From Schistocephalus solidus (Eukaryota > Platyhelminthes > Cestoda > Diphyllobothriidea > Diphyllobothriidae), in NCBI GenBank assembly GCA_017591395.1, contig WEDG01003999.1:248001-312000 (forward strand): 64,000 nucleotides of DNA. The letters are read 5' to 3'. The translations under genes were made by a program, and so were the position numbers. Position 1 is the stretch's first letter, and every line of letters begins with the position of its first letter. Below the pieces are notes generated by a model. It saw nothing but the letters and a program-made list of their open reading frames with translations. It did not search any database and was not told the DNA's origin. Of the stretch, positions 1 through 58,874 are shown one piece after another.

Positions 1-221
1 GTTTCTGCAAGAAATGAAGCACTGAGCAACCTTATTTCTTAACATTATCAATCGCATTTCACAGGATAAATTCAATACGTCTATCTTGGAATTTTGATTT
101 CCTATTCCAACTTCTCATGCAATATCGAGCATACATTTTAACTGGCCTACATAATGGAAAGATTTCAATCTCTCTAGAACACCACAGCGTATTTATAACC
201 GATGGATTTTTCCGATATATG
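1..221. other. No feature seen
   Basis: Mixed-composition DNA at the window edge. I see no coding signal, tRNA-like box or repeat shared with the rest of the window. Confidence 0.5.
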
Positions 222-605
222 CAGGCGGTCGCATAGCGATGTCAAGCATGTGTTGGTAAGGTAAAAACGATAAAGTCAAGGGATACAGGCATGACCAGAC
301 CGGAATGCTACACGTCGTTAGGAGACCTCCTGTGAGGGCTCTAACTTGAACTCCAGGGCACAACGGAACTTATGTGTTCATTAAGCAGATCGGTGAGCCG
401 CACATTATCGTCATATTCCCGATCGTAACCGACAAATCAACGGCACCGTGGCTCAATGGTAGAGCGTTCGACTCAATTACCAAATGTCGCGGGTTCGAAT
501 CCCAGGTGGTTCACACTTAAGATTGGGTATGACTGGCTGATGACAGCTAAAATCCAGAAATGTCCATTCCGGTCTCCCTTGTCTTTGTCGGTTCCACATT
601 GATAT
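222..605 (+). repeat. SINE-1 copy 1 (tRNA-derived, hammerhead-bearing)
   Basis: A block here called X (about 305-400; it contains a short hairpin around GTCG and the phrase CGGTGAGCCGCAC) precedes a tRNA-like head. The head runs about 443-515, with pol III A box TGGCTCAATGG and B box GGTTCGAATCC and a perfect D stem GCTC/GAGC. A hammerhead-like segment follows at 531-574, and the copy ends near (TA)n at 601-611, where LINE A begins. At 222-250 there is an inverted copy of the X start. Six other copies in the window share the same block order. The head is tRNA-like but followed by non-tRNA sequence, so this is a SINE rather than a tRNA gene. Confidence 0.8.
531..574 (+). ncRNA. Hammerhead-like ribozyme motif of SINE-1 copy 1
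   Basis: Stem I strands GACTGG (531-536) and CCGGTC (569-574) pair with one G-U. CTGATGA occupies 537-543 and GAAA 557-560. Stem III is ATGTCCAT followed by T as the UH site. Stem II (544-556) is decayed in this copy. Topology is type I, with both ends in stem I. Confidence 0.6.
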
Positions 606-1510
606 ATATAAATGTGCGGGAGCAGTGAGGGCGGTGGAGGCGGGTGTGTTGACTGCATGTCGGAGCCCCAGGCACTGGTTCACCAGACTCCGTGCGATGG
701 ATTAGCAGGTGACCGACCAGACCAATGCGCCGAGTTGAAATTGCGGGCGCAGTGTGGGCAGGAGAAATCGGTAGAGGCTGGGGGGATGTCATTCATGGTA
801 GTGGGGGTGGCAGTGGCGCTAAGAATGGCAGGAGCGGAGGGTGAGCATGGTGTATCGTTGTTTTCGGAATTGCGGGGACTTCCACTGTCATGGATGTGCA
901 TGTGAAAGAATAGGCCCATGCGATGAGCGAATGCATGGGGACAGTAAGGGCAGTGGAGACGGTGATCTCTGCTGTGTGTTGGTGCCTCAGGCACTGGTTC
1001 ACCAGTCTCTGTACGATAGATGCGTAAGTGAACGACCATGCCGATGCGTGAGGTGAATGTACAGTCGCATTGAGGACAGCTTAGAAGAGAGTTCCCATCG
1101 CTGGTTGCGGTGGTAGGGTGGTGATGGCAGTGGCGTTTGCGGCGAAGGCGGTGTTGGTTGCGGTGGTGGGGGTAACAGGCGATGAGTAGCTGGACTTGGT
1201 CTCTATGATGGTGGGAGTAATGGAATTGACGCCAGGAGTGAGGGTGGGGGAGTCAGAAGGAGGGTTGGCAGAATTTGACGTAGAAGTTGGTATTATCGGA
1301 CTGTTGGCGCATTGCGTCCGACGATGTCCGACAGACCGATTCATGCGCGGAAGATACGTTGACAGCGCAGGCATGTTGGAAGGGCCTGGGCATCAGCGGT
1401 GTTGGTCCGGGTGCTGGTGACATTCGTGCCGCTCTTTTGGCCTTGGCGGCGGCGATCCGGTTGGCCTCATGGATTGCTGAACCAGTCTTCACTGATCTTC
1501 TCCATGCCGG
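606..1510 (-). pseudogene. LINE A C-terminal zinc-finger tail, broken
   Basis: Downstream of the post-RT domain, the minus strand encodes a Ser/Thr/Pro-rich linker (STSNSANPPSDSPTLTPG, then TTATNTAF) and Cys2His2-like units, including HCPYCPHAFAHRMGLFFHMHIHDSG. The units are split over frames. In copies C and D the same tail carries a C2HC unit first and then two or three C2H2 units. It is probably a nucleic-acid-binding tail of the element protein. Truncation at about 606 removes its end. Confidence 0.75.
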
Positions 1511-1693
1511 TCTATCCTGGGCGATGTCCTCCCAGGTCGCCGGGTTGATTTGCTGTTGCTTCAAAGATTTCTTCAAAGTGTCATTTTAGCGTCGTTTTTG
1601 ACCTCCCTATCGGCGAGCACCCGTAGCGACATCTCTGTAGAAGAGTCGTTTGGGTAGTCACTCGTCGTCCGTTCTTACCAGGGGGCCGCTCCA

Positions 1694-3590
1694 TCACAAT
1701 TGCACTTGCCTAAGCATGGCGTGGATGCTGAGGATTCCGGTCCGCTCCAGGACTTCCGTGTTTGGGATCCTATCTTGCCATCTCAGCTTCAGTATTCTGT
1801 GGAGGCAGCTGAGATGGACGTGGTTTAGCTTCCTGTCTTGGTTCGAGTAGACGGTCCAGATCTCTGCTCCGTAAAGGAGTGTTTTCAAGACGAAGGCGTT
1901 GTACACCTTCAGTTTGGTGTTCAGGTGAATACCATGGTGATTCCACATGGAGGCCTGCAGGCGGCCGAAGGCCTGACTAGCTTTGGAGATCCGTTGGGCA
2001 ACCTCGTCATAGATTCTCGTGTTGCGTGAGAGCGTGTTTCTTAGATAAGCGAAGGTTTCCACATTTTTAGTTGAGCCCCATTGACATTGATTCGTGGAGC
2101 ATTGTATTCCGCGCTGGGTGACGGCTGGAGCATGACCACCATTTTGGCTGTACTGATTGTTAATCCAAAATTGGCGCAGACTGCGGCGAAAAGGTTCAGG
2201 CTCCTTCGCATGTACTCCTCCGTCACGGTGTTAAGGGCGCATTTGTCCGTAAAGAGCAAGTCATGGACTGTAGTCGTAGACCCGCGCGTTGTGGCCGGTA
2301 TACGCTGACTGTTGAGAAGGTGCACGTCAGTTCTGTAGGCGATGCGGATCCGAGGCTGCTCATCACGTTAGGCGTCCATCAGCATAGCAGAGAACATGAG
2401 ACTGAACAGGGTGGGGGCCAATTCGCAGCCCTGCTTCACTCCGTGGGTCACTGCCAATGCTTCGGATACCGTCCCGTTGTCAGTGACGCGTGCCGTCATC
2501 CCGTCATGAAGCTGACGCACCATGTGCATGACCCGATCAGGAAAACGTAATTTCCGCATGAATTTCCACATTTCGCCGCGATGCACCGTGTCAAAAGCTT
2601 TCGTTAGATCTACGAAGGTAGTGTATAGGTGAGTTCGCGTCTTGTGGCACATCTCTTGGAGCAAGAGGGCGGCGAAGATCATGTCGGTTGTTACGCGGTG
2701 TCGGCGAAAGCCACATTGGCTTTCCGGGAGCAGACTTTGCTCTAGGTGACCGTTCAGACAATTGAGAAGGATACGGGCGAAGATCTTCCCGGCGATGTTG
2801 AGCAACTAGATGCCTTCGTGATTGTCACAGAGTTGCCGGTTCCCCTTCCGTTCGTAGAGATGGACGATGGTCACGTCTTTGAAATCCTGAGGATTTTGTG
2901 CTTGGCACCATATCTTCTGGAAGAGTGTAGTGAGTTCTGCCATGAGCCGGTGCCCACCATGCTTGTAGACTTCCGGTGGGATTGCCTGGGATCCCGGTGC
3001 TTTACCGCTGGAAGTTTGCTGCACGGCCCGGATGGTTTCTGGTAGGGAAGGTGGCAGATCCAGGTCATTGTTCGTGTCCACTTGAAGGAGCCGGTCAATG
3101 GAAGCATCGGAGATGGCTGATGAGCAATTAAGGACACTGTTTAAGTGATCGGCGCAGCTCTTCAGCATTTTGGATTTATTTGTCAGCATTTTTGTGCCGT
3201 CAGAGCTGAGCAGCGGTGCAGTCTCCTTGATGCAGGGGCCGTAGCTAGTCTTGATGACTTTGAAGAAGTTTTTCATTTCATTGTGGTCCGCATACCCCTG
3301 GATTTCCTCAGCCTTTCGGATCCTCCAGGCGTCCTGCATCTCCCGCAGCCGTTGCTGTACAAGGCGCCGGTATCTGGAGAAGGTTGCTTTGGTAGCATCA
3401 GTCCAAAGGTCCATGTAGGCTTTGTATAGTCCATTCTTCTCCGCGAGTAAGTTGCTAATATCGGTTTCATTGTCGTCAAACCAGTCCTGGTGTCAACGGC
3501 GTGCGCGTCCGAGGACTTCGAGGGCGGTGGACTGGATGACATTTCGCAGTTGACACCATCGTGTCTCCACGGTAGCGGTATCAGCTTGAG
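1694..3590 (-). pseudogene. LINE A reverse transcriptase remnant
   Basis: The RT palm and thumb are read in pieces. Residues such as [40 protein letters not shown] (motif A), THGVKQGCELAPTLF (motif B) and LLFTDKCAL (motif C) appear in order. Motif C should be FADD; FTDK has lost the second catalytic Asp. There is an in-frame TGA at 3493-3495, shared with copy B, and a TAG near 2806. A frameshift lies between about 2040 and 2060, ahead of the segment METFAYL to MLRQVQL. The [18 protein letters not shown] post-RT block is intact. The protein cannot be functional. Confidence 0.88.
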
Positions 3591-3606
3591 CATGCAGGTC
3601 CTGCAG

Positions 3607-4548
3607 TTACTCGGTTATTTGGTTGCTGAAATCAAAACAGGGAGCAGGCGAATTTAATAAAAGAGTATTTAAATTACCTGGCGGCCTCTTACCTTGGTGC
3701 TTTCGTCGGGGTTGCAGTCGAAGCCTCATCTGGGAGATGTCGAGGCGGTGATCTGTCCAACCATTGGCATCGCTGATCGCCTTGGTTACCAGCTTGTCCT
3801 GTCGATCTCGCCTCCGGACGAGAACATTGTCCAGCAGATGCCAGCGCCGCAATCGAGGGTGCATCCACGTGACCTTCTCCCGCGTCGGAAGGTGGAGGAA
3901 GGTGTTGATCAGCAGGAGACAGTGTTGCGCACACGATCTTAGAAGTAGGAGGCCGTTATCATTACGGCTACCGAGACCATGGGGACTCAGCACTCCCTGC
4001 CAGGCTGCGTGGTCCGTCCCGACGCGGCCGTTGAAGTCACCAAGGACAATTAACTTGTCCTCTTTCGACACAGTTGCCAGCATGGTGTGCAGGTCCTCGT
4101 AGAATTTGTCCTTCGCCACATCAGAGCTCGTCATTGGGGGAGCGTAGGCACTGATGATGGTGGCGAACTGGTCTCCCCGAAGAGGCAGGCGGAAGCCCAT
4201 CAGGCGATTATTGATACCCTGTGGCAGACAGGGCAGACGTCCAACGATGTCGTTCCGGATGGCAAAGGCAACAACAGCGTCGCGTCGCTCTGCCTTTGGC
4301 CAGCCGCACCAGAAGAAGGTGCAGCTGGCACCCTCCTTCTCCAGCTGATCCGGCTCAGAGAATCGGGTCTCGTTGAGAGCAACAATGTCCACCTTGTAGC
4401 GAGCCAGTTCCCGTGTGACTAGCGCCTTCCTCCGTTCCAGCCGGTTGCTCCTAGGATTGTCTAAAAGGGAACGAACATTCCAGGCTGCTAGTTTCAGTGG
4501 ACTCACATGAGCACCCTGGAGGGTATCGCGAGGGGTATGGGGAAGCAT
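3607..4548 (-). pseudogene. LINE A endonuclease domain (APE-like), 313-residue open segment
   Basis: This is the N-terminal nicking endonuclease of a target-primed non-LTR retrotransposon, which cuts genomic DNA to prime reverse transcription. In order it shows WNVRSL (about residue 23), the acidic NETRF motif (E of the active site), [29 protein letters not shown] and the terminal TDHRL containing the catalytic His. All key residues are readable. The segment opens at a Met just after the 5' UTR, and the same Met-proximal sequence occurs in copy B. It is closed by a stop 3' of the domain, so it is separated from the RT. I call it a pseudogene because the downstream polyprotein is broken. Confidence 0.88.
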
Positions 4549-5124
4549 GGTATTGTTGTTTGTTTGAGGTTAACGCCCACGTATTTTGCGATCTGCGAGC
4601 CGCGGCTGGCTGCAGAAGACATGAGACCCAGCATTTTTTAGGGCACCTTTTTTAGCCCCTTCCTCCGCGAGGAGGCAAGCAGTGCTATCCCTAAATAGGG
4701 CTGCTTGGACATCCCAGACGGCTGCCGAACTCCACTATGGGTCACGGATTTTGTTTTTAGTGGGAGAACGACCCGAGTTAGTCTGGGCCGCCTACGGGGT
4801 TGCTGTCGCCCCCACCGTAGGACCTTTTTGAGAGGGGGAGGTGGGAAGTTCGGGAGTCAGACATACCGGGTGTGGAGGCACACACAACACCGGAGACCCT
4901 CACCTGGTTTAGCCCGCCGGTCGTGACGGTTGCCCCGGGTGTGGCCGCTGGGAAGAACCCAACTTCGAGGAGCCACAGGTGAGAGTTGGGTACCAGTTAG
5001 AGGCGGCCACAGGAGCATTCACAACCTGTACGAGACAAATCGAGCTATCTGTGTGTGCTCTCCCTAACTAGTACCCCTACACCCCTACACGCCACATACA
5101 TACATACCTTCATACATGACACAC

Positions 5125-5275: not shown

Positions 5276-6600
5276 CATGTAGATGAAGGAGGAGTGAGTG
5301 CAGTAAAGGTTATTTAAGTCCATCATCAAATTCTAATCTACTTAACACGGAAATCAGCATCTGTGCGCCGACCCTGCCAGGTGTAAACGGTGGACACCGT
5401 CGTCGTCAATAATCGAATTGATGTTTGTTACATCTCCCACAGACAGCGGAAATTAGTAAGTTCACAGGAGTGAAGACTCAGATTAAGGTTCCAATAGAAG
5501 CAGACAGTGCCTGATAATTATTTTTCTCGTTGAATACAAGTCCGGATGGTATTTGAAACGTTTTGCGAAGACCCCCTACTTCAGCTGTGGACGATCTTTC
5601 ATCTGTGCATGGACTTTGGCCGACATGGCAACCGAAGCCTGGTCATCGCATTTTGAAGCAGTTACAAATAAAACCTGCCTAAGTCTTGGTCCCAAAAACA
5701 GTGAACCTCATGTGCGGTGAGGAGAGAGAGGCATTGGACAGATATTTAGTTCACGACTTGCTACTCTTCTTACCGCGTGCTCTCACGGAACGAGTATAAG
5801 TGAATAAAAAGTGACTAATTATGTACGTTCTGGTGTAGCGATTACTTCTTTAACTCTTCCGGTAAGATTGAGGGTCGTCACACTCTGCGTCAAGTAACAC
5901 GGGGACTTTTCATATGACTGTTTATCAACCTGCATGAGTGGTGAATGTGGCTAATGCGTCCTTCTAATATTTAAATTTAAAAGCGTATCGTGGGAGAATG
6001 ACACCTTATGAGTCATCGGCACTCTCTACTGTGTTGCGGGTCATCAAGGGTTCGATAACCTGTTGGAATTTGAACAAACCGTCGATAGGGACACATTGAT
6101 CGCATTTAACGTCTCTTCGGCGATTATCGGTTCTTGACAAGGTCACGTTGACCAGTATTTAGGGCTTAAAGTCACAGCTATTGCCTTGTTGGTCATTATT
6201 GTAAGCCGGCTATAGGGATGCCCTCGGAGCCACCTTAAAATCCCGTTCACAGAAGGAGAAGCGTACACACGTTCTGAGTCCACTGAATTGAACGCACTTA
6301 CGACACCGTAACTCATTACCTTTCACCTGAAATTACCATGCATTTTAAGCAAAATGTAGGCTTTTAGTCAGCGCTATCCACTCCAAAACTCCGATACCTT
6401 GTGAAGGCTCCGAACAGAGACCGACGGTGCAACGGGATGAACCTCGACCGATGAACGCTTGTCACATAATACGAAAGAGATAAATAAATTGAATACAAAA
6501 ACTCGCGTGGAGAATCCCTTCCATTCCTTCAATTCTAAGGACATCATACAATATCCCATTACACTATGCTCTGGTACTATACTGTTATTTCCTACCTACC
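5276..6600. other. No gene or repeat recognised
   Basis: About 1.3 kb of mixed composition. The open frames are short and of no recognisable family. No tRNA-like boxes, ribozyme cores or copies of other repeats in the window were noticed. Confidence 0.4.
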
Positions 6601-6625
6601 AGAATATCGGTCATGAGTGTACACT

Positions 6626-6626
6626 G

Positions 6627-6694
<68 letters not shown>
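6626..6694. repeat. (TA)n microsatellite
   Basis: An almost pure TA tract of about 69 bases that directly abuts the truncated PLE endonuclease. Apparent Ile-Tyr reading frames here are artefacts. Confidence 0.97.
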
Positions 6695-6696
<2 letters not shown>

Positions 6697-7172
6697 GCGG
6701 TGTACTGTGGTCAGACAGGAAAATCAGCCTCCACGCGCATACACGAACATCAATTGGCAGTAAGGAGGCGAGACCACTTGTCTCAAGTTGCCATGCACAC
6801 GCTAGAAACAGGACACAAATTTGCCTGGGACAAAACCCGCATTGTTGCCTCCTGTCCATCTAAGAAAGGCCGAGAATTTTTAGAGGCCGTTTTCTCAGAT
6901 GACTCATGCATCAACCGACGCATCGAATTGGACCATGTGTACGACTACCTGAAAGAAAGCGGGAAGAAACGACAGCCAATCCAAATGTAAATGCCCCCAC
7001 AATGACAACAATTGGCAGGAATGACAAAGCAATATCGATTTTTTCCGGCACGTGTTAAATTTGAACTGTTTTTGCACACTTACCACAAGTCTGACGACGA
7101 TCTGGGGTGCCAGCGTCGAAAATTTACATAATAAAAGTTACCTTTTTGTTTCCCAAAGAACGTCTTTGCTTC

Positions 7173-7175
<3 letters not shown>
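6695..7175 (+). pseudogene. Penelope-like element fragment PLE-1: GIY-YIG endonuclease end and 3' region
   Basis: GIY-YIG endonucleases of Penelope-like elements cleave DNA for their own integration. The fragment reads AVYCGQTGKSASTRIHEHQLAVRRRDHLS, broken here as YCGQTG (the YIG strand) and IHEHQLAVRRRD (the helix carrying the catalytic Arg/Glu environment). ALETGHKF-like and EFLEAVFSDDSCINRRIELD conserved blocks follow. It stops at about 6988 after QPIQM. Everything N-terminal, including the whole RT, is absent and replaced by (TA)n. The 3' region carries a hammerhead motif at about 7085-7135. PLE-2 and PLE-3 encode close relatives. Confidence 0.88.
7085..7135 (+). ncRNA. PLE-type hammerhead ribozyme motif (PLE-1)
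   Basis: CTGACGA occupies 7091-7097. Stem II GATCTGG with CCAGCGTC pairs with one bulged C. GAAA is at 7118-7121. Stem III is the minimal AA/TT with T as UH base, followed by the stem I strand beginning ACA. PLE 3' regions are known to carry such motifs, which supports the call; stem I is short. Confidence 0.65.

Positions 7176-7247
<72 letters not shown>
7176..7247. repeat. (TA)n microsatellite
   Basis: A pure TA tract of about 72 bases. The tandem ribozyme element starts immediately after it. Confidence 0.97.
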
Positions 7248-7250
<3 letters not shown>

Positions 7251-7479
7251 GGGAAATAATTTCTCAAATTATTAAAGGCAGGACATGGAGTCAGGTGCTT
7301 CGGACATGACTTTTTAGGGTCAGACCCGAAATTTCAATGAACATTTGGGTCGAAGACAATCAACCACTGTGGAATTACCACGTAATGCCCATTCTACAAA
7401 CAAGTAGAACTACAAGTAGTATGAATCTTATATGGCAAAGACGTTATACCGTTCTTCCGACATAGGTACTAGAATAAAG

Positions 7480-7551
7480 CCCAGACACGTGTTTCGCCGA
7501 TGTTTCTGCTGCTGCGTGACACAGCAACGAGGGCTTCGGCTCCTCAGTGGG
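7480..7551 (-). ncRNA. Hammerhead ribozyme, type I (unit 1)
   Basis: On the minus strand: stem I CCCA/TGGG (plus positions 7548-7551 and 7480-7483). The core CTGAGGA is the complement of 7541-7547. Stem II is GCCGA/TCGGC with canonical G-C closure, topped by an inner TGCTG/CAGCA hairpin. GAAA is the complement of 7492-7495. Stem III is the palindrome ACACGTGT (7485-7492) and the cleavage triplet is GTC. Every conserved core base is present. Confidence 0.88.
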
Positions 7552-7833
7552 TCCCCCAGCGTTCTCTATGCGGTTTCTGGTATATGGACTCCAGATAATA
7601 ATCGGGGAAATAATTTCTGAAATTATTAAGTGCAGGACATGGAGTCAGGTGCTTCGGACATGACGTTTTAGGGTCAGACCCGAAATTTCAGTGAACATTT
7701 GGGTCGAAGACAATCAACCACTGTGGAATAATCACGTAATGCCCATTCTACAAACAAGTAGTACTACAAGTAGTATGAATCTTATATGGCAAAGACGTTA
7801 TACCGTACTTCCGACATAGGTTCTAGCTAAAAG

Positions 7834-7905
7834 CCCAGACACGTGTTTCGCCGATGTTTCTGCTGCTGCGTTACACAGCAATGAGGGCTTCGGCTCCTCA
7901 GTGGG
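7834..7905 (-). ncRNA. Hammerhead ribozyme, type I (unit 2)
   Basis: Same structure as unit 1. The complement of CTGAGGA is at 7895-7901, the complement of GAAA at 7846-7849, palindromic stem III at 7839-7846, and stem I at 7834-7837 with 7902-7905. The few differences from unit 1 fall in the terminal loop or other unpaired positions of stem II, so the fold is kept. Confidence 0.88.
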
Positions 7906-7959
7906 TCCCCCAGCGTTCTCTGTGCGGTTTCTGGTATATATATATATTTATATATATAG

Positions 7960-8980
7960 TGTAGTGTATACGTGAGTTCGCATCTCCTGACACTTCTCTT
8001 GTAGCTGGCGGGCGGCAAAGATCATATCGGTTGTTACGCGGTGTCGGCGGAAGCCACATTGGCTTTCCGGGAGCAGACTTTTGCTCTAGGTGACCGTTCA
8101 GACAATTGAGAAGGATACGGGCGAAGATTTTCCCGGCGATGTTGAGCAACGAGATGCCTCTGTGATTATCACAGAGTGGCCGGTTCCCCTTCCGTTTGTA
8201 GAGATGGACGATGGTCGCGTCTTTGAAATCCTGAGGAACTTTTCCTTGGCGCCACATCTCCTGGAAGAGTGTTGTGAGATCTGCCATCAGCTGGGGCCCA
8301 CCGTGCTTGTAGACTTCCGGTGGGATTGCGTCGGTTCCCGGTGCTTTACCGCTGGAATCTGCTGCACGGCTCGGATGGTTTCTGGTAGGGAAGGCGGCAG
8401 ATCCAGGTCATTGTTCGTGTCAACTTGAGGGAGCCGGTCAATGGCAGCATCGGAGATGGCTGATGAGCAATTAAGGACATTTCTGAAGTGCTCGGCCCAA
8501 CGCTTCAGAATTTGCGATTTCTCTGTCAGCAGTGTTGTGCCATCAGAGCTGAGCAGCGTTGCGGACCCATTGATACACGGGCCGTAGATGGCCTTGATGG
8601 CTTTGAAAAAGTTTTTCATTTCATTGCGGTCCGCATACCCCTGGATTTCCTCAGCCTTTCGGATCATCCAGGCATCCTGCATCTCCCGCAGCCGTTGTTG
8701 TACAAGGCGCCGGCATCTGAAGAAGGCTGCATTGGTGGCGTAAGTCCGAAGGTCCATGTAGGCTTTGTGTAGTCCATTCTTCTCCGCGAGTAAGTTGCTG
8801 ATGTAAGCATCATTGTCATCAAACCAGTCCTGGTGTCAACGGCGTGCGCGTCCGAGAACATCGAGGGCGGTGGACTGGATGACATTTCGCAGTTGACACC
8901 ATCGTGTCTCCACGGTAGCGTTATCATCTGGAGCATGCAGGTCCTCCAGTTTCCCGGTAATTTGGTTGCTGAAATCAAAA
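7960..8980 (-). pseudogene. LINE B linker and N-terminal RT remnant
   Basis: Contains [76 protein letters not shown] and GKIFARILLNCLNGHLEQ, with a frameshift just after the last block. The TGA at 8835-8837, between RARR and HQDWFDD, is the same stop as in copy A (3493-3495), whereas copy D keeps a sense codon. It is cut off at the TA tract before RT motif A is complete. Confidence 0.85.
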
Positions 8981-9048
8981 CAGTGAGCAGGCAAATTTAT
9001 TAAAAGAGTATTTAACTTACATCGCGGCCTCTTACTTTGGGGCCTTTG

Positions 9049-9994
9049 TCAGGGTTGCAGTCGGGGCCTCATCTGGGAGATGACGAGGCGGTGATCTGTC
9101 CAACCATCGGCATCGCGGATCGCCTTGGTTACCAGCACGTCCTGTCGATCTCGCCTCCGGACGAGAACATAGTCCAGCAGATGCCAGCACCGCGACCGAG
9201 GGTGCATCCACGTGGCCTTCTCCCGCGTCGGAAGGCGGAAGAAGGTGTTGGTCAGCAGGAGACGGTGTTGCGCACACGTGCGCAGAAGAAGGAGGCCGTT
9301 ATCGTTACGGCTACCGAGACCATGGGGACACAGCACTCCCTGCAAGGCAGCGTGGTCCGTCCCGACGCGGGCATTGAAGTCACCAAGGACAATTAACTTG
9401 TCCATCTTTCGACACAGTCGCCAGCAGGGCGTGCAGGTCCTCGTAGAATTTGTCTTTCGCGGCATCAGTGCTCGTCATTGGGGGAGCGTAGGCACTGATG
9501 ATGGTGGTGAACTGTGATCCCCGAAGAGGCAGGCGGAGGCTCATCAGGTGATCATTGATACCCTGCGGCAGACAGGGCAGACGTCCCACGATGTCGTTAC
9601 GGATGGCAAAGGCAACAACAGCGTCGCGTCGCTCTGCCTTTGGCCTGCCGCTCCAGAAGAAGGTGTAGCCGGCCCCCACCTCCTCCAACTGACCCTGCTC
9701 AGAGAATCGGGTCTCGCTGAGAGCAGCAATGTCCACCTTGTAGCGCGCCAGTTCCCGAGCGACTAGCGCCTTCCTCCGTTCCAGCCGGTTGCTCCTAGGA
9801 TTGTCTAAAAGGGAACGAACATTCCAGGCTGCTAGTTTCAGTGGACTCCCGCGAGCACCCTGGAGGGTATGGCGAGGGGGTATGGGGACGCATGGTATTG
9901 TTGTTTGTTTGAGGTTTAACGCCCACGTATTTTGCGATCTGCGAGCCGCGGCTGGCTGCAGAAGACATGAGACCCAGCATTTTTTAGGGTACAT
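9049..9994 (-). pseudogene. LINE B endonuclease domain, one frameshift
   Basis: An APE-like endonuclease of the LINE. It reads from a Met at 9994 through an N-terminal leader (about 55 residues, including [20 protein letters not shown]), [16 protein letters not shown] and [18 protein letters not shown] frameshift between about 9400 and 9465 changes frame just before [12 protein letters not shown]. The second frame then carries [17 protein letters not shown] and the terminal TDHRLVIS. All catalytic motifs are readable once both frames are considered, but the protein as written is broken. The leader suggests the true element start codon may lie upstream of the first Met used for copy A. Confidence 0.88.
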
Positions 9995-10436
9995 TTTCTA
10001 GCCCCTTCCTCCGCGAGGAGGCAAGCAGTGCTATCCCTAAATAGGGCTGCTCGGACATCCCAGACGGCTGCCGAACTCCACTATGGGTCACGGATTTGTT
10101 TTAGTGGGAGAACGACCCGAGTTAGTCTGGGCCGCCTACGGGGTTGCTGTCGCCCCCACCGTAGGACTTTTTGAGAGGGGGGTGGGAAGTTCGGGAGTCA
10201 GACATACCGGGTGTGGAGGCACACACAACACCGGAGACCCTCACCTGGTTTAGCCCGCCGGTCGTGACGGTTGCCCCGGGTGTGGCCGCTGGGAAGAACC
10301 CAACTTCGAGGAGCCACAGGTGAGAGTTGGGTACCAGTTAGAGGCGGCCACAGGAGCATTCACCACCTGTACGAGACAAATGGAGCGACCAAATGCAAGC
10401 TGTGCGGTGCTGCCCCTAACTAGTACCCCTACACCC

Positions 10437-11040
10437 CCAAAACACCAAATACAAGTAGCCCACCACCCTACATCTAATTTACGCTCACAGCTTGTACACC
10501 CTAAGGACAGGGTTAGCTACCTTGATAAAAGAGGTGTTGTCTTCAAAATTCGAAGTTACAGTTGTAATGCCGTTTATTGTGGCCAAACTGGGAAATCTGT
10601 CTCAACCCGCCTACACGAACATCAGTTGGCGGTTAGAAGACGAGACCATTTATCCTAAGTGGCTATGCATACACTGGAAACCGGAAATAAATTTGCATGG
10701 GAGAAAGCATGGATTGTTGGCATCTGCCCAATCAGAAAAGACCGTGAATTTCTGGAAGCAATGCACTCAGATGAGGCATGTCTCAACCGGCATATCGATT
10801 TGGATGCCACATACAAAATCGTTAATGAAAAATTCAAACACCTACAACCAATCTTGAGGGGATTACGAAATACACTCAACGCCTATTGGTTCGGATTTCG
10901 CCCAATCTCAGAATACTTTGTTAAACACGGTTAATTGATTAATTGTTCCTGTACACTACCCGTTGTCTGACGACGAGCTGGGAGACCAGTCTCGAAAATT
11001 TACGCATTAAAGTTTCTATTTTTCCCCAAAGAATTTAAGT
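10437..11040 (+). pseudogene. Penelope-like element fragment PLE-2: GIY-YIG endonuclease and 3' region
   Basis: Starts within QIQVAHHPTSNLRSQLVHP, then VSYLDKRGVVFKI, NAVYCGQTGKSVSTRLHEHQL, AVRRRDHLS, a single in-frame stop (10656-10658), AMHTLETGNKFAWEK, REFLEAMHSDEACLNRHIDLD. This is the C-terminal GIY-YIG part of the same PLE family as PLE-1 and PLE-3. Apart from the one stop the frame is open to 10934. The RT is missing, because LINE B's 5' end abuts it. A hammerhead motif follows at about 10960-11015. Confidence 0.9.
10960..11012 (+). ncRNA. PLE-type hammerhead ribozyme motif (PLE-2)
   Basis: CTGACGA occupies 10967-10973. Stem II GAGCTGG/CCAGTCTC pairs with one bulged T. GAAA is at 10994-10997 and minimal stem III AA/TT is followed by T. 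Its location, just 3' of the GIY-YIG coding end, equals that in PLE-1 and in the inverted-repeat arms. Confidence 0.68.
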
Positions 11041-11488: not shown

Positions 11489-12964
11489 ATGACGCTTTTT
11501 CTGTCAGCTCTTTGGGAAACAGCGACCTCTACCATGTTCAACTACTCCACTCAGAAGGTGGTACGGTTGAATTCCAAGTGGGTCGGTGTTTTCTTCCGTC
11601 TGATGCAGCTGGGAATCATACTCTACGTCATTGTCTGGGTGATGATTTTCGAGAAAGGCTATCAGAAGTTTGATGAAGCTATGAGCGGTGTCACGGCCAA
11701 AGTGCGGGGTGTGGACTACACGAACACCACAGCCTTCCACTCCAGCGGTCTCGTTGTGTGGGATGCCGCAGACTATGTGATTCCGCCGCAGCAGAAAGCA
11801 GCCTTCTTTATCATGACAAGTGTCGCTTTAGCCCTGAAACAGACTCTGGGCTTCTGTGAGGAGTCGCCCTACGTGGCAAGCAGTCGTTGCGTCAGTGCCG
11901 AGGACTGTCGAGCCGGCGAGTTGATAGTATTTGGGCATGGAATAAAGACGGGCAGATGCGTTCCCTCGAGTGTCCTGGCGAATGTCAGTGTCTGTGAAAT
12001 TTACAGCTGGTGCCCGGGCGAGCATCAACATTTGCTTCCAGCGACTCCGCTGAAAAATGCACCCAATTTCACTGTCCTCCTCAAAAACAGTATCGAGTTT
12101 CCTGCGTTCCATGTGAAGCGACGAAATATTTTCGATTGGATGGATGTCGATTACTTGGAAACCTGTCTATACGACCGGGATCACGAGACCATGCGGTACT
12201 GTCCTCGCTTTCGTATCGGTGATATAATCAAATACAGTGGAGGTGAAACTGAAGCGATTTGGGCACAGGGTGGCATTGTGGCCATCAGAATCGACTGGAC
12301 CTGTAATCTGGACTACGATGTGGAGGACTGCCTGCCAAGCTACTCATTTCACCGCCTGGACGATGCAGACAGCCTTTACGTGGCCGGCTGGAACCTTCGG
12401 TATGCTGACCACTTCGTGGAGAATGGAATTCGCAATCGCTATCTGGTCAAAGCCAACGGAATACAATTCGTCATCACGGTACATGGCACTGGGGGAAAAT
12501 TCGACCTCCTGACCTTTTCGATGAATCTGGGTTCAGGCCTGGCCCTGTTGGGCATAGCTACTCTCCTTTGTGACATGATCGTGCTCAACTTTGTCCGTAA
12601 GCGCTCTATGTATCGGAAGGCGAAGGTGGATCTTTTGGAGAAGCAGCGGAGGAAGATGCGGGTACACCAGGTTCGCAGCGCCCTAGAGATGTTTTCAAAG
12701 TCCGGTTCTGCCATGGACAACGAAACTGTACGGGACAGCCGCTCAAACCGCCAGACAACAGAAGGACATCGCCAGAGATCGCGCAGCTTCGACCAACCGA
12801 TACGTCAACTTCCGACCTTCAGTCACGTGATGAATGAGCGGCCCGTCAGCCAGTGCGTAGCGATCCGTCGAAGTACGGGATTGCCCAAGACAAACGTCTT
12901 ATCATCCACAAGAATAATCGAGGCTGCTGAGGAAAAGGCGGTGAGGCCTCCAATTTCTGACTGA
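11489..12964 (+). CDS. P2X purinoceptor, ATP-gated cation channel (intronless)
   Basis: A trimeric plasma-membrane channel opened by extracellular ATP that passes Na+, K+ and Ca2+. The 491 residues show the cytoplasmic YxTxK phosphorylation motif (Y19-K23), TM1 about 34-54, and a large ectodomain with all ten conserved Cys (123, 134, 140, 157, 169, 175, 226, 238, 272, 281). TM2 is about 340-368, with NLGSG and LCDMIVLN, followed by a long basic, Ser-rich tail (370-491). ATP-site positions read K71, R73 (usually Lys), T195, N302-L303-R304 (usually Asn-Phe-Arg) and K321. A single uninterrupted frame is unusual for animal P2X genes, which normally have many exons. Met16 (11534, context ACCATG) is an alternative start that still keeps YxTxK. 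No disabling change is visible. Both flanks are transposon-rich. Confidence 0.96.
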   Translation: MTLFLSALWETATSTMFNYSTQKVVRLNSKWVGVFFRLMQLGIILYVIVWVMIFEKGYQKFDEAMSGVTAKVRGVDYTNTTAFHSSGLVVWDAADYVIPPQQKAAFFIMTSVALALKQTLGFCEESPYVASSRCVSAEDCRAGELIVFGHGIKTGRCVPSSVLANVSVCEIYSWCPGEHQHLLPATPLKNAPNFTVLLKNSIEFPAFHVKRRNIFDWMDVDYLETCLYDRDHETMRYCPRFRIGDIIKYSGGETEAIWAQGGIVAIRIDWTCNLDYDVEDCLPSYSFHRLDDADSLYVAGWNLRYADHFVENGIRNRYLVKANGIQFVITVHGTGGKFDLLTFSMNLGSGLALLGIATLLCDMIVLNFVRKRSMYRKAKVDLLEKQRRKMRVHQVRSALEMFSKSGSAMDNETVRDSRSNRQTTEGHRQRSRSFDQPIRQLPTFSHVMNERPVSQCVAIRRSTGLPKTNVLSSTRIIEAAEEKAVRPPISD

Positions 12965-13779: not shown

Positions 13780-13890
13780 TCAAACTCACGGCTCCCGGTG
13801 GGGCCTCGTAGCTCAGTTGGCTAGAGTGTTGGCTGTGGCATGGGTTCAAATCCCACCAAGGCCGCCGAGTTTTTCACAAGTGCGTCAAAG
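13780..13890 (+). repeat. SINE-2 copy a (tRNA-derived)
   Basis: A tRNA-like head with A box TAGCTCAGTTGG, B box GGTTCAAATCC and a perfect T arm TGGG/CCCA. GGCCT/AGGCC pairs as an acceptor-like stem. It is followed by CCGAGTTTTTCACAAGT. Two minus-strand copies at 61.4 and 61.7 kb share both the upstream CTCACGGCTCCCGGT (first of them) and the downstream tail. They also have a longer variable region, deleted here, so this is a SINE rather than a tRNA gene. Confidence 0.75.
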
Positions 13891-18839: not shown

Positions 18840-19508
18840 TTACCGCAGGTGTTCGTGGAGGCGCATATGTCCTAATAGGCCCATGTGGAGTGTAAATGTG
18901 CGGGAGCAATTGGTAGAGGCTGGGAGGATGTCGTTCATGGTGGTGGGGATGGCAGTGTTGGTAAGAATGGCAGGAGCGGAGGGTGTGCATGGTCTATCGG
19001 TGTTGTAGGCATTGCGGTGCATTCCACTGTCATGGATGCGCATGTGACCGAATTGGCCCATGCGATGAGTGAATGCGCGAGGACAGTGAAAGCAGTGGAG
19101 GCGGCGATCTCTGCTGTGTGTTGGCGCTCCAGGCACTGGTTCACCAGTCTCTGCACGATGGATTCGCAAGTGACCGACCAGGCCGATGCGTTATTTGAAT
19201 GTGCAGTCGCATTGAGGACAGTTTAGGAGAGAGTCCCCATCACTGGTGGTGGTGGCGGTAGTGAAAGCGAAGGCGGTGGTGGTTGCGGTGGTGGAGGTAA
19301 AAGGCGATGAGTATTGGGATGTGGTCTCTATGATGGTGGGAGTAATGGAATTGATGCCAGGAGTGCGGATGGGGGAGTCTGAAGGAGGGTTGGCAGAATT
19401 TGATGTAGAAGTTGGAATTGTCAGATTGTTGGTGCATTGCATCCGAAGATGTCCAACCAGGCCGATTCGTGCGCGGAAGATGCGTTGAAAGCGCGGGCAT
19501 GTTGGCAA
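18840..19508 (-). pseudogene. LINE C zinc-finger tail (four units)
   Basis: From the minus strand: a C2HC-type unit CPRFQRIFRARIGLVGHLRM-QC (second Cys lost to Phe), a Thr/Ser-rich linker, a C2H2 unit starting LNCPQCDCTF interrupted by a stop, a good unit HCFHCPRAFTHRMGQFGHMRIH, and a final partial unit NCSRTFTLHMGLLGHMRLH. This is the clearest view of the tail architecture besides copy D. The role is likely RNA or DNA binding by the element protein. Confidence 0.8.
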
Positions 19509-19638
19509 AACCTGGGCATCGGCGGTGTTGGTCCGGGGCGCTGGTGACTTTCGTGCCGCTCTTTTGGCCTTGGTGGCGACGATTCGGTTGGCCTCATAGA
19601 TTGCTGAACCAGTCTTCCCTGGTGTTCTTCATTTTGGT

Positions 19639-20757
19639 CTATCCTGGGCGAGGTCCTCCCAGGCCACCGGATTGATTTGCAGTTGCTTCAGCGATTTCTT
19701 CAAAGTGTCCTTGCAGCTTCGTTTTTGACCACCCTGCCGACGAGAACCCGTAGCGAAATCTCCGTAGTCGCTCGTCATCCGTTCTTACCAGGTGGCTGCT
19801 CCATCGCAGTTGCACATGCCTCAGCATGGCGTGGATGCTGAGGATTCCAGTCCGCTCCAGGACTTCCGTGTCCGGGATCCTGTCTTGCCATCTCAGCTTC
19901 AGTATTCTGCGAAGGCAGCTGAGATGGAAGTGATTCAGCTTCCTGGCTTGGTTCGAGTAGACGGTCCAGGTCTCCGGTCCGTAAAGGAGTGTTGTCAAGA
20001 TGACGGCCTTGTACATCTTCAGTTTGGTGTTCAGGTGTATACCGTGGTGATTCCACATGGAGGCCTGCAGCCGGCCGAAGGCCTGACTAGCTTTGGAGAT
20101 CCGTTGTACAACCTCGTCATCGATTCTCGTGTTGCGCGACATCGTGCTTCCTAGATAAGCGAAAGTTTCCACGTTTATGAGTTGAGCACCGTTGACATTG
20201 ATTCGAGAAGCATTGTATTCCGCGCTGGGTGGCGGCTGGTGCATGACAACCGTTTTGGCTGTACTGATTGTTAATCAAAAATCGGCGCAGCCTTCGGCGA
20301 ATAGGTCCATGCTCCTTTGCATATCCTCCTCCGTCACGGTGTTAAGGGCGCAGTCGTCCGCGAAAGGCAAGTCATGGACTGTAGTCTTAGACACGCGTGT
20401 TGAAGCCTGCATACGCCGACTGTTGAGAACGTGCACGTCAGTTCTGTAGGCGATGCGGATCCCAGACTGCTCATCACGGTAGGCGTCCATTAGCATAGCA
20501 GAGAACATGAGACCGGACAGGGTGGGAGCCAATACGCAGCCCTGCTTCACTTCGTTGGTCCCTGCGAATGTTTCGGATACCGTCCCATTGCCAGTGACGC
20601 GCGCCGTCATCCCGTCATGAAGCTGACGCAGCATGTGCGTGAAACGCTCAGGCAGCCGAATTTCTGGATGACTTTCCACATTCCGTCACGATGCACCATG
20701 TAAAAAGTTTTCGTGAGATCTACGAAGGTAGTGTATAGGTGAGTTCGCGTCTTGTGG
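19639..20757 (-). pseudogene. LINE C reverse transcriptase remnant
   Basis: Reads [40 protein letters not shown] (motif B), [20 protein letters not shown] (motif C with FADD intact) and, after a stop, [21 protein letters not shown] to [20 protein letters not shown]. The Asp pair survives, but motif A is lost with the internal deletion and the frame is broken near the C-terminal KRRYKD region. It cannot be functional. Confidence 0.88.
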
Positions 20758-21779
20758 AAAGCAGGGCAGGCATGTCCTCGTAGAATTTTTCCTTCGCCAC
20801 ATCAGAGCTGGTCATTAGGGAAGCGTAGGCGCTGATGATGGTGGTGAAATGGTCTCCCCGAAAAGGCAGGCGGAGGCTCATCAGGCGATCATTGATACCC
20901 TGCGGCAGACAGGGCAGACGTCCCACGATGTCGTTCCGGACGGCAAAGGCAACACCAGCGTCGCGTCACTCTGACATTGGCCAGCCGCACCAGAAGAAGA
21001 TGTAGCCGGCAACCACCTTTGCCAGCTGACCCTGATCAGAGAATCGGGTTTCGCTGAGAGCAGCAATGTCCACCTTGTAGCGCGCCAGTTCCCGGGCAAC
21101 TAGCGCCGTGCTCTGTTCCAGCCGGTTGCTCCAAGGATTGTCTTAAAGGGAACGAACATTCCAGGCTGCTAGTGTGAGTGGACTCACCCGAGCAGCCTGG
21201 AGGGTATGGCGATAGGGGGGGGAGAGGGGGGTATTGTTGTTTGTTTGAGGTTTACGACCACGTATTTTGCGATCTTGGAGCCGCGGCCGGCTGCAGAAGA
21301 CGTGATAACCAGCATTTGTTTAGGGCACCTTTTCTGGCCCCTTCCTCCGCGAGGAGACAAGCAATGCTGTCCCTAAATAGGGTTGCTCGGACATCCCAGG
21401 CGGCTACCGAACTCCACTATGGATCACGGTTCGTTTTAGTGGGAGAACGACTCGAGTTAACCTGGGCCGCCTACGGGGTTGCTGTCGCCCCCACCGTAGG
21501 ACTTTTCAAGAGGGGGAGTAGGGAAGTTCGGGAGTCAGACATACCAGGTGTGGAGGCACACACAATACCGGAGACCCTCACCTTGTTTAGCCCACTGGTC
21601 GTGACGGTTGCCCGGGGTGTGGCCGCTGGGAAGAACCCAACTTCGAGGAGCCACAGGTGAGAGTTGGGTACCAGTTAGAGGCGGCCACAGGAGCATTCAC
21701 CACCTGTACGAGACAAATGGAGCGACCAAATGCTATCTGTACCCCCAACAACCCCATTTGGCCTATATAATCTCATCTT

Positions 21780-37639: not shown

Positions 37640-38790
37640 AATCTTTAATGCGTACATTTTTGAAACTGGTCCCTTAGCTCTTCGGCAGACTTTGGGATGT
37701 GTACAGAAACAAGTAATTAAGTAACCGTGTCCTACCGAGGATTCTACAGTCGAGCTCTGTTTCCACCAATACGTGATGCGCGTATATTGTCATCCCGCCG
37801 TTATTGGCTGTGTCCTTGAGAATTCTGTATGCGGCATCCAAATCGATATGTCGATTGATGCATGCCTCATTGGAGTGCATTGCTTCCAGGAATCCGCGGC
37901 CATTTCTAGATGCGCAGGTGACAACAATTATAGTGTTCTCCCAAACGAATTTATGACCGGTGTCCAGTGTGTGCATGGCTACCTGGGATATATGGCCTCG
38001 TCTTCTTACCGCTAACTTCCGTTCGTGTATGCGGGTGGAGACGGATTTACCAGTTTGCCCACAATAAACGGCATCGAAACTGGAGTATGGGATTTTGCAG
38101 ATAACACCTTTTCTATAAAGATAGCCAACTCTGTTCTTAGGGTGTACAGGCTGTGAACGTAGGTTAGATGTGGGGTGGTGTGCTACTTGTATCTGCTGTT
38201 TCCTCAGCTGTCTTTCGACAAACTCGGATACATTTTTCACGTATAGGAGAGTTAAGCAGGTCATTGTTTTGGGTGACTAAGTGGTCATGTCGTTTGAAAC
38301 ACCTTTCGTTTTGAATTCTTGTCACTTCAGCCATTGATGCACAAAGTCACGCGGGTATCCATTTTTGGAGAATAATTTAAAGATATATTTCATTTCTGCC
38401 TGATGACTTTCTTCATCAGAGCAGTGGGCTTTTGATCGATTTAAGAGACCTTAGACAGAACTCCTTTATTGAGAGACGGGATGGTTACTCCCTAAGTGTA
38501 GGACGACCTCACGATATGTTTCTTTGCTGTAAACTTATGTTTGGCGTGATCCATCAGTTTTTCGATGTACGAGGACATCCAGAAATGGGAGATGTCCTTC
38601 AACATCCGTTTCGAACGTAAACTCAATTCCTGGAACTGTAGAGTTCAGATTTTTGTGGAGCCGGTCCAAGTGTTTCTTCTTCATGATTATAAATGTGTCA
38701 TCTACGGGAACGAAAATAATCACAAGAGTTCTGGCCAAACCCTTAAAACAGGAAGAACCCACCTTTGCCAACGTATATGGTCTTCAAAAA
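37640..38790 (-). pseudogene. Penelope-like element fragment PLE-3: RT motif C to GIY-YIG
   Basis: Minus strand. FVPVDDTFIIMKKKHLDRLH and EFTFETDVEGHLPFLDVLVH form the PLE RT motif C with both Asp. A frame-broken stretch follows (SIKEFCLRSLKS and KNGYPRDFV-like). The last open part (38264-37674) reads QQIQVAHHPTSNLRSQPVHP, AVYCGQTGKSVSTRIHERKL and GFLEAMHSNEACINRHIDLD. PLE RT and GIY-YIG act together in integration and cDNA synthesis. The 3' region carries a decayed hammerhead (37650-37690). At 38780 it meets another PLE fragment head-to-head. Confidence 0.9.
37650..37692 (-). ncRNA. Decayed PLE hammerhead motif (PLE-3)
   Basis: On the minus strand CTGCCGA (complement of 37682-37688) replaces CTGACGA, and AAAA replaces GAAA. 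The flanking ACGCATTAAAG is identical to PLE-2. At least two core bases are changed, so it is probably inactive. Confidence 0.5.
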
Positions 38791-42571: not shown

Positions 42572-44063
42572 AACCAAGTCTTAAACGACAGGAAAGCTTA
42601 CTCACCACTCGCAGAGGATCTAACCACAAAGCAAGCTGCATATGTGAAGAAGAAGAAGATTACTGAGCCCGCTCAATTGAAACTCATAACCCCCGCTGAC
42701 TCCAGATTTATTAATCTCAGTGACCTCCCAAAAGTGCACAAAGCAGGTGCGCCCTTGAGGATCATAGCACCACTCATTGGACCGCCAACTTACAACTTTG
42801 TTAAATGGTTGTACCGGCACCTGAAGCACCTCACCAATGGACCACAATACAGCATAAAAACTCTCAGGCATTCCTCCAGAAGATCCAAGGGCTTAAAGTA
42901 AGTCCTGCTGAGTGTATTCTATCGTTTGACGTGGTTGCCCCGTTTTCTTCAATACCATATGATTTGGCCATTGAGGGCGTAGCTCGGCGCCGGCAAGATA
43001 ATAAAATAGACATCCCAATACAACACGTTTCAGAAATGCTTAGGCTCTGTCTCAAGAACTTATATCAAGTCGACGGAAAGTTCTGTCAACAGGTTAAGGG
43101 TACCCCAAAGGGCCCACCAATATCGGTTCTACTGGCAGAACTGGTATTGAAGAGGTGGTTATGCGAACTTTCAGACCAAAAATGTGGGTCCGATACGCAG
43201 ATTATACATTTTTTATCATAAAAACATCCGAAAAGGAGCAGCTGCATCGGAGCCTGAAAAGTGTTTTCCCAGCTTTTAAGTTTACTCGTACAGAAGCAAG
43301 GAGAGGTATCCTTCCATCCGTCAAAATGATTATCAAAAAAACTCGGTTATGTCGGCATGGCATCGAGCGTCCACCGCAAAGGCTCTAATACCGATATCAT
43401 ACTTAGCTATAAAAGCAACCATCCTGCGGTTCATAAAATAAATTTCGTTCGAACCCTTTTCGACTAGGCCATTCGGTACTGTAGTAGCGAGGATCTACGC
43501 AAAAAGAACTATCTAACCGACTCAACGGATACCCAGTCAGCTTTGTGAAAAGTTGCCTCAGACACGAGAGAAAACCACAAACCCTCGGCTCTAATGGAGA
43601 ATCTGAACCGCGTAAATTTTACTCCCTACCTTACATGCAGGGTATCTCCGAAGCGATCGCCCGACAATTAAACCGGTTTGGCATCTCCATTTCGCACAAA
43701 CCCGCATCGTCCTTGCGCGCAACACGATCCCGAGTAAAAGACCCCATACCCAAAGAGCAGCACACTAATGTCACCTACCACATTCAATGTGCTAACAGCT
43801 CTTCCACTTATATTGGTCATACCAGCCGACGACTTGGAACGCGTATTACCGAACATAAACTAGCCATCCGTCGACGCGACCCTTTATCAATCGTCTTTGC
43901 GCACACCCTTGAGTTCGACCATCGCTTCAATTGGGACGGAACCGAAGTGGTTGCAATGGTTAACACCAAACAGATGCGTGAATTTCTAGCACGATCAGCA
44001 TCAACCACCATGTCAATCTGGATTCTCATTACGAAGGCCTGTGTGCCCGGCTCACGGAATTGA
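42572..44063 (+). pseudogene. PLE-A, left copy: RT and GIY-YIG endonuclease remnant
   Basis: PLE RT readable in pieces: LITPADSRFINLSDLPKVHK, GAPLRIIAPLIGPPTYNFVK, ILSFDVVAPFSSIPYDLAI (motif A), QVKGTPKGPPIS (motif B, usually GTPMGSPIS), VRYADYTFFI (motif C, YVDDTF expected, second Asp lost to Tyr). The last open stretch (43545-44063) encodes FYSLPYMQGISEAIARQLNR, SRVKDPIPKEQ, a Cys-containing CANSSSTYIGHTSRRLGTR and ITEHKLAIRRRDP, the GIY-YIG domain. At least three frameshifts separate the parts. The right-arm copy shares the YADYTF change, so it predates the duplication. Confidence 0.9.
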
Positions 44064-56489: not shown

Positions 56490-56555
56490 TTGACGTGTGC
56501 GTTAGTGTGCGTGTGTATGAATGTGCGTGTTTGTGTGCGTGTGCGTGTTTAGCAG
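56490..56555 (+). repeat. (GTGTGC)n-like microsatellite
   Basis: An imperfect GTGTGCGTGT repeat that immediately precedes the truncated 5' end of LINE D. Confidence 0.8.
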
Positions 56556-56558
56556 AGA

Positions 56559-58847: not shown

Positions 58848-58874
58848 CTGCAATTGGGATAGAGTGGCCACCAT

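Follow-up and report, generated by a model that had tools for sequence, protein, structure and literature searches.

A 354-nt unit carrying a type I hammerhead ribozyme is tandemly repeated and dispersed in the genome of the tapeworm Schistocephalus solidus. Its copies sit in TA microsatellites, end there at two internal 3′ sites and also form two-ended inserts, which combine the two sites more often than expected, with exceptions. We interpret the unit, from genomic sequence, as a non-autonomous retrozyme whose RNA, probably in circular form, would serve Penelope-type machinery as a template, and we put the probability of this reading at about 80%. The enzyme would be the protein of a Penelope-like element (PLE), the hammerheads would cut in vivo and the template would be circular. 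The element was recognized in a 64,000-nt stretch of contig WEDG01003999.1 (assembly GCA_017591395.1, positions 248,001 to 312,000), hereafter the window.

The window contains 1.96 head-to-tail copies of the 354-bp unit at 7248-7939 on the minus strand. Tandem Repeats Finder (TRF) reported a period of 354, 2.0 copies, 95% matches and 0% indels at 7246-7939, in agreement with the two units described in a first-pass annotation made from the letters alone. The complete minus-strand hammerhead cores named there are present in both units (CTGAGGA, GAAA and GTC, with stem I CCCA/TGGG and stem II GCCG/CGGC), and the predicted cuts, after C at 7838 and after C at 7484, are 354 nt apart as claimed. According to the TRF period and the phases, the insert (7248..7939) consists of 102 nt before the first cut (7939-7838), the 354-nt unit between both cuts (7837-7484) and 236 nt after the second (7483-7248). 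As both hammerheads are complete, double cleavage would free one 354-nt RNA. The unit is non-coding, with a longest Met-started frame of 42 aa in two units of majority sequence, and its GC content is 44.6%. At its 5′ end the insert meets an interrupted TA tract (7935..7959), which is probably the other part of its target. The actual 3′ end, in the region of site B (7248..7262, minus strand), runs into an (AT)36 tract (7176..7247; TRF) that it shares with the 3′ end of a PLE on the left. The site A region, AACGTCTTTGCC, occurs at 7788..7799 and at 7434-7445 on the minus strand; at other loci, copies with a TA tail terminate immediately 3′ of it.

Covariance model searches recovered both ribozymes at scores below the family cut-off. 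In a 781-base search with cmscan in evalue mode, Hammerhead_1 (RF00163) matched copy 1 at 7832..7907 (minus strand, 22.8 bits, E = 0.0069, predicted cut 7838/7837) and copy 2 at 7478..7553 (minus strand, 22.7 bits, E = 0.0073, predicted cut 7484/7483). The Infernal check proposed in the first-pass annotation thus gave a match to each copy at E of about 0.007, but both remained under the gathering score of 34, and an Rfam search of the whole window at gathering thresholds reported only a tRNA and neither hammerhead. The low score results from an additional hairpin in loop II: the cmscan alignments contain 37 and 39 nt inserted in this loop, including a 9-bp hairpin, which predicted folds place at 7862..7882 in copy 1 and at 7508-7528 in copy 2 (minus strand). 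A genome-wide RF00163 search, in which 73 of 91,055 candidates were scored, returned no match here or in 14 control genomes and is uninformative.

The palindromic stem III proposed earlier stands as far as the palindrome ACACGTGT itself is concerned, but within one molecule it yields only 2 bp and a 4-nt palindromic loop. Axolotl hammerheads with a short stem III are reported to cleave better as dimers, and a mussel motif to be devoid of most of the loop 1-loop 2 tertiary contacts that characterize canonical type I hammerheads (PMC7229834). When folded singly, neither window ribozyme stood out in stability (z = −1.82 and −0.42). For the majority sequence folded as a circle, stability exceeded that of 60 shuffles only mildly (z = −1.9).

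Conservation was assessed in 165 distinct motif copies (236 in all) from 34 fetched loci. Each pair of stems I, II and III and of the loop II hairpin was kept in 146-164 of the 165 copies, the range for the nine hairpin pairs being 158-163; the copies are so alike that little double change could be counted. An intact core pattern was found in 140 of the 165 distinct copies; under a more stringent pattern, the core was intact in 144 of the 200 full units. The 12 core positions were 98.2% conserved versus 96.0% elsewhere (96.4% without CpG sites). Conservation of the hammerhead across copies is greater than chance, and the slightly better conservation of the core than of the rest suggests that the hammerhead matters.

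These properties agree with the earlier designation of the element as a retrozyme in a flatworm. Metazoan non-LTR retrozymes are described as non-coding, low-GC tandem repeats of 150-450 bp with a type I hammerhead, occurring as dimers to multimers; they self-cleave and give unit-length linear and circular RNA, and any target site duplications that they show exceed 4 bp (Cervera and de la Pena 2020, PMC7229834). Retrozymes of platyhelminths are named there in passing (PMC7229834). The tapeworm element, a dispersed, non-coding 354-nt tandem unit with type I hammerheads that forms dimers to long arrays in a genome also containing PLEs, corresponds to this published description (PMC7229834) and has the sequence features of metazoan retrozymes that were tested. 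It differs in the extra loop II hairpin and in its Rfam scores below the cut-off.

The first-pass annotation had also proposed a search of the genome for further copies. Such a search of the 604-Mb assembly gave at least 151 matches, with 40 of 1086 candidates scored, and the copy number is a lower bound from junctions. The 34 loci that were fetched, the window's own among them, yielded 200 full units in 33 loci; the commonest unit length was 354 (78 of 200), and the median identity to the window unit was 96.6%. Arrays across the 34 loci reached about 20 units, and many were flanked by (TA)n. Divergence between units was 1.71% within an array (701 pairs) versus 4.18% between arrays (703 pairs), and the array-averaged divergence of 2.18% was reached by none of 300 shuffles. 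Relative divergence changed little with distance inside an array, from 0.94 at lag 1 to 1.03 at lag 6, but was higher at lags 8-10 (1.17-1.32). This near-flat profile would fit repeated copying of one circle combined with some local exchange, although it does not prove it; the slight increase with distance indicates that local duplication contributes. Target-site duplications would be invisible in the many inserts that lie within (TA)n. More divergent copies of the unit (about 70-80%) lie beside young arrays at L012:37-1589, L028:26-1137 and L025:2159-2395, and they probably represent an older layer of the retrozyme family.

Beyond what the first-pass annotation contained, the genomic copies revealed a (TA)n target, two preferred 3′ ends, head-to-head inserts and a link to Penelope. 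All alternating TA tracts of at least 10 bp in the 34 loci were scanned for flanking unit sequence. Each of the 25 scored TA-tailed 3′ junctions, from 20 loci, fell at one of two sites: 15 at site A (unit positions 49-51, ..GTCTTTGCC before ATATAT) and 10 at site B (unit positions 231-241, ..ATTATTTMCCCG before ATATAT). TA-flanked 5′ ends were scattered (seven hits in six loci, two of which are the one interrupted boundary of the window). A scored TA-tailed 3′ end was absent from 14 of the 34 loci, where some arrays exceed the fetched stretch and some end in other sequence. One stray 3′ end lay at unit position 40, beside a TATA run and next to a PLE (L048).

Genome-wide, exact junctions numbered 465 at site A and 500 at site B, with 0 for the reversed-pattern controls of both sites. 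No exact match was found genome-wide for the ribozyme cut followed by TA, and the unit's second ATATA (254-258) followed by TA gave 2 matches, the same number as its reversed control. These counts indicate that the 3′ ends are neither made by the ribozyme nor a product of mere TA annealing. Sites A and B look like chosen internal start sites. A fold that brings A and B together is not supported: 18-24 of 59 pairs with equal spacing were equally close in predicted folds.

At several loci, a minus-strand and a plus-strand array meet 5′ to 5′, with (TA)n at both outer 3′ ends. A partial list of such pairs, covering junctions on contigs up to C853 (81 of 465 for A and 99 of 500 for B) with neighbours within 6 kb, contained 18 outward pairs: 16 A/B, one A/A and one B/B (p = 5.7 × 10−4). 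Other neighbouring pairs in this list were inward-facing (3) or faced the same direction (7). Four scored pairs in the 34 loci lie outside these 18 (L018, L025, L026 and L030), all A/B, and two more that the score missed were read by eye (L021, A/B; L023, A/A). In the pooled set, 21 of 24 head-to-head pairs were A/B, compared to 49.5% expected (p = 1.2 × 10−4). L016, L035 and L036 were left out of this count, each having an outer end without a TA tract; L035 resembles B/B, whereas L016 stops 5 nt before reaching A. If both are entered as same-site pairs, A/B pairs number 21 of 26 (p = 0.001). A strict rule that A is always paired with B was rejected, given the A/A inserts L098 and L023 and the B/B insert L099.

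Twelve of the 18 pairs were fetched (L088-L099), comprising 10 of the 16 A/B pairs and both exceptions. In these an antisense and a sense piece join 5′ to 5′, and the 12 joins are all different: seven have an overlap of 1-12 nt and five have gaps of 1-40 nt, the middle of L096 being scrambled. The smallest head-to-head insert combined 22 nt from A with 79 nt from B. Judged from their sequences, these inserts appear to have arisen independently, with reverse transcription primed from either side of a break.

The insertion pattern bears on the idea that the family is ordinary satellite DNA that retains a relic ribozyme and has spread through recombination alone. Tandem arrays, some of them long, would be expected of a satellite, but the 965 exact TA-tailed ends at two sites and the 12 head-to-head inserts with their 12 joins look like separate insertions of RNA copies, and the hammerhead core has been kept. 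We consider a satellite origin very improbable.

The PLE that adjoins the window insert on the left, designated PLE-A, lies on the opposite strand. This 5′-truncated copy (6695..7175, plus strand, 99% identical to L044) includes the end of the ORF, the 3′ UTR and an end at site 1, ..AACGTCTTTGCTTCTAA before the TA tract. It is placed between a (TA)33 tract at its truncated 5′ end (6627..6693; TRF) and the (AT)36 tract shared with the retrozyme. A tandem PLE-A unit at L044 has a period of 2571, a reverse transcriptase domain (Pfam RVT_1) and relatives in Sparganum that reach 77% identity over 86%. Pfam GIY-YIG passed its cut-off in a related PLE copy at 43488-44063 of the window, whereas the PLE-A fragment 6493-6990 stayed below it.

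Nineteen other PLE-A 3′ ends were fetched, of which 12 were at site 1 (..AACGTCTTTGCTTCTA(A)), six at site 2, about 34 nt further and at or within a few bases of ..CCAATTGAT, and one elsewhere; 17 of the 19 run into TA. Exact PLE-A junctions genome-wide numbered 42 at site 1 and 31 at site 2. Six outward PLE-A pairs were selected because one end was known to be at site 1, and were assessed from position and strand without being read through. In every one the opposite end is at site 2, which by chance would occur about one time in three (p = 0.0014). The complete exact lists contained three outward pairs, two mixed and one 2/2, bringing mixed PLE-A pairs to 8 of 9 overall. At the level of genomic junctions, PLE-A shows the same TA target, two 3′ sites and mixed pairs as the retrozyme.

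This parallel also weighs on a simpler account, in which (TA)n DNA ends anneal to TA-like spots in any abundant RNA, a LINE or other reverse transcriptase does the copying, and the link to Penelope is a coincidence of target. The ATATA that follows site A inside the unit would suit such annealing, as would the stray 3′ end at the unit's TATA run in L048 and the abundance of alternating TA tracts of at least 10 bp, of which the window alone has seven. However, the other ATATA accounts for 2 junctions versus 465 at A, site B has 500 junctions although no alternating TA run of 4 nt is present there, A is paired with B non-randomly, and PLE-A behaves likewise at two sites of its own. We consider the annealing account improbable, though less remote than a satellite origin.

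A short sequence connects the two elements directly. The 11-mer AACGTCTTTGC, located at 7159..7169 (plus strand) in the PLE-A end of the window, also occurs at retrozyme site A; it lies 1 nt before the start point there and 6 nt before that of PLE site 1. As a bare BLAST hit it is weak (E = 0.041); in our judgement a chance origin is unlikely, because the word sits at the start site. Comparison of PLE-A unit L044 with the 354-bp unit gave no clear homology beyond the 11-mer, only short words, and no likeness is claimed between site B and PLE site 2 beyond GAT. Predicted folds place site A in a hairpin loop of the unit and PLE site 1 in a stem-loop.

Besides the window, retrozyme sequence was found directly beyond 5 of 24 fetched PLE-A ends. 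Across a TA tract from PLE-A, retrozyme 3′ ends lie at position 52 (L043), 40 (L048) and 51 (L087) and a 5′ end at position 24 (L062); at L053 the retrozyme follows the PLE-A end without a clean TA tract. In the reverse comparison, the sequence across the TA tract from 20 site-A junctions was PLE-like in four cases and retrozyme in one, with only 55 bases to the contig end at L079. The figure of four is weak, since PLE fragments are common in the window.

One reading of this proximity is that the 354-bp unit belongs to a coding PLE as its terminal repeat and is not an element of its own, a case raised in the first-pass annotation for a coding element on the same strand. PLE repeats are reported to carry small hammerheads (PMC7761336), and unit and PLE do adjoin in the window. 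The neighbouring PLE is, however, on the other strand, the unit and PLE-A L044 have only short words in common, and the unit forms its own arrays at the 34 fetched loci; we regard this as the least credible of the explanations considered.

Under the preferred reading, the retrozyme cycle would begin with transcription of tandem copies, and the type I hammerheads would cut the RNA into 354-nt units, which would probably be closed to circles. A GIY-YIG PLE of the same worm, PLE-A or a relative, would copy the retrozyme RNA, as the genome copies support; other PLE families of the genome could act as helper instead of PLE-A. Both DNA strands would be cut inside (TA)n microsatellites, and reverse transcription would start at internal site A or B of the RNA, not at the ribozyme-made end, and continue round the template for anything from part of a unit to about 20 units. 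In one outcome, a single cDNA would join the other side of the break. In the other, both DNA ends would act as primers, usually at different sites, and their cDNAs would be joined 5′ to 5′, which would leave a head-to-head insert with TA at both outer ends.

Biochemical work on an anole PLE offers a precedent for parts of this scheme. The purified protein is reported to cut both strands of AT-rich DNA and to start at two internal RNA sites (PMC11167929). A point of difference is that the anole start site is not homologous to the target (PMC11167929), in contrast to retrozyme site A, which is followed by ATATA. More tentatively, and at somewhat less than even odds, we propose a two-ended, rolling-circle form of target-primed reverse transcription. 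A single Penelope RNP, possibly dimeric, would hold one retrozyme circle at two dedicated sites, A and B; once both strands of (TA)n had been cut, each DNA end would prime at a different site, both cDNAs would be extended round the circle, and they would be joined head to head. The retrozyme would then be an RNA parasite imitating the two start sites of its helper.

The same biochemistry bears on the template. In vitro, the anole PLE worked without hammerhead cleavage and drew mainly on unprocessed RNA (PMC11167929); the template could accordingly be a linear multimer in place of the circle. Taken further, Penelope machinery might move the retrozyme from linear, multimeric, uncut transcripts, the hammerhead not being needed for copying. 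The equally efficient in vitro insertion of hammerhead-dead RNA by the anole PLE (PMC11167929) speaks for this version, and the transcript of a homogeneous array would also yield homogeneous arrays. Against it, arrays reach about 20 units that are nearly equally related, and conservation is slightly higher in the core than elsewhere, suggesting that the hammerhead matters. We consider copying from uncut linear transcripts rather unlikely, although it is by a wide margin the most plausible of the alternatives.

Among known systems, the insertions of the tapeworm element resemble those of Poseidon of Anolis in the AT-rich target, the cutting of both strands and the two internal start sites (PMC11167929). 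In Penelope of Adineta vaga, a 31-bp tail is described as optional on one inverted repeat, in mostly head-to-head copies (PMC3846280), and the tapeworm inserts are similar in having inverted copies and a tail on one side. PLEs encode a reverse transcriptase and a GIY-YIG endonuclease, whereas the tapeworm unit has no frame over 42 aa. As judged from its insertions, the retrozyme works like a PLE (AT-rich target, two start sites, inverted copies), but it is not one. Metazoan retrozymes, in the available part of their description, come without a (TA)n target, a preferred pair of internal 3′ ends or head-to-head inserts (PMC7229834). Plant LTR retrozymes are likewise non-autonomous, carry hammerheads and have circular RNA as a proposed intermediate; they are described with type III hammerheads in LTRs, a PBS, a PPT and 4-bp duplications (PMC7229834), unlike the type I hammerheads and tandem units of the tapeworm element.

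The schistosome Sm-alpha element is SINE-like and has a pol III promoter. Matches to pol III boxes in the tapeworm unit are weak: B boxes were found only with one mismatch, on either strand, and the one perfect A box is on the antisense strand. Compared by description and not by sequence, the two are alike as short, non-autonomous flatworm elements with a type I hammerhead (PMC6155905).

LINEs or PLEs have been discussed as possible movers of animal retrozymes, with PLEs a strong candidate from shared features and co-existence; mobilisation by PLEs is proposed there, not shown (PMC7229834). A search of the open-access literature, at the level of titles and the opening lines of abstracts, found no cestode hammerhead paper on such an element, and the open-access retrozyme literature since 2021, at the same level, contained no report of insertion evidence for PLE mobilisation. 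While retrozymes as a kind are already known, an insertion fingerprint pointing to the helper was not found in the literature searched. The hundreds of junctions in one genome form such a fingerprint, which agrees with what a purified PLE protein does biochemically and with how tails behave in Penelope elements. The fingerprint yields an exact question, namely whether a PLE reaction would start at A and B, and the natural inserts allow start site, target and strand use to be read off.

Several further observations concern PLEs. A tandem PLE-A array with a period of 2571 and a site-2 end is present at C2010:54886-60546; the template of the coding element may itself be a circle or multimer. In the PLE-A 3′ region, CTGACGAC...GAAA at L044:391-430 looks like a small hammerhead with one extra C, although none is claimed, and similar words occur in other PLE copies of the window; an Rfam search of 321 bases of the PLE-A 3′ region gave no match at E ≤ 1. 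PLE fragments resembling other families lie in the window at 10254-10857 (plus strand), 37674-38276 (minus), 42805-44063 (plus) and 51138-51713 (minus). The fragment at 37674-38276 (minus) runs into a (TC)n-(TA)n tract, so microsatellite targeting may reach beyond PLE-A.

The surroundings of the element in the window contain a P2X receptor gene (11489-12964), whose top relatives, from Sparganum proliferum (80%) and from Dibothriocephalus latus (85%, with 62% of the query covered), point to a diphyllobothriidean tapeworm. LINE-like copies are located at about 680-4569, 7961-10046 and 18897-21382 (minus strand) and at 56552-59619 (plus strand), the last with a Pfam RVT_1 match at 57429-58847. 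A tRNA-like sequence at 13802-13864 (plus strand), above the Rfam cut-off at 36.3 bits and without an ARAGORN call, is perhaps a tRNA-derived repeat. Finally, a short repeat, GACAAAGACAAGG..GGAATGG.CATTTCTGG, was observed at L074, at L084 and at window positions 1-760 (minus strand), beside TA tracts and PLE or retrozyme ends, and may be another non-autonomous element on the same TA target.
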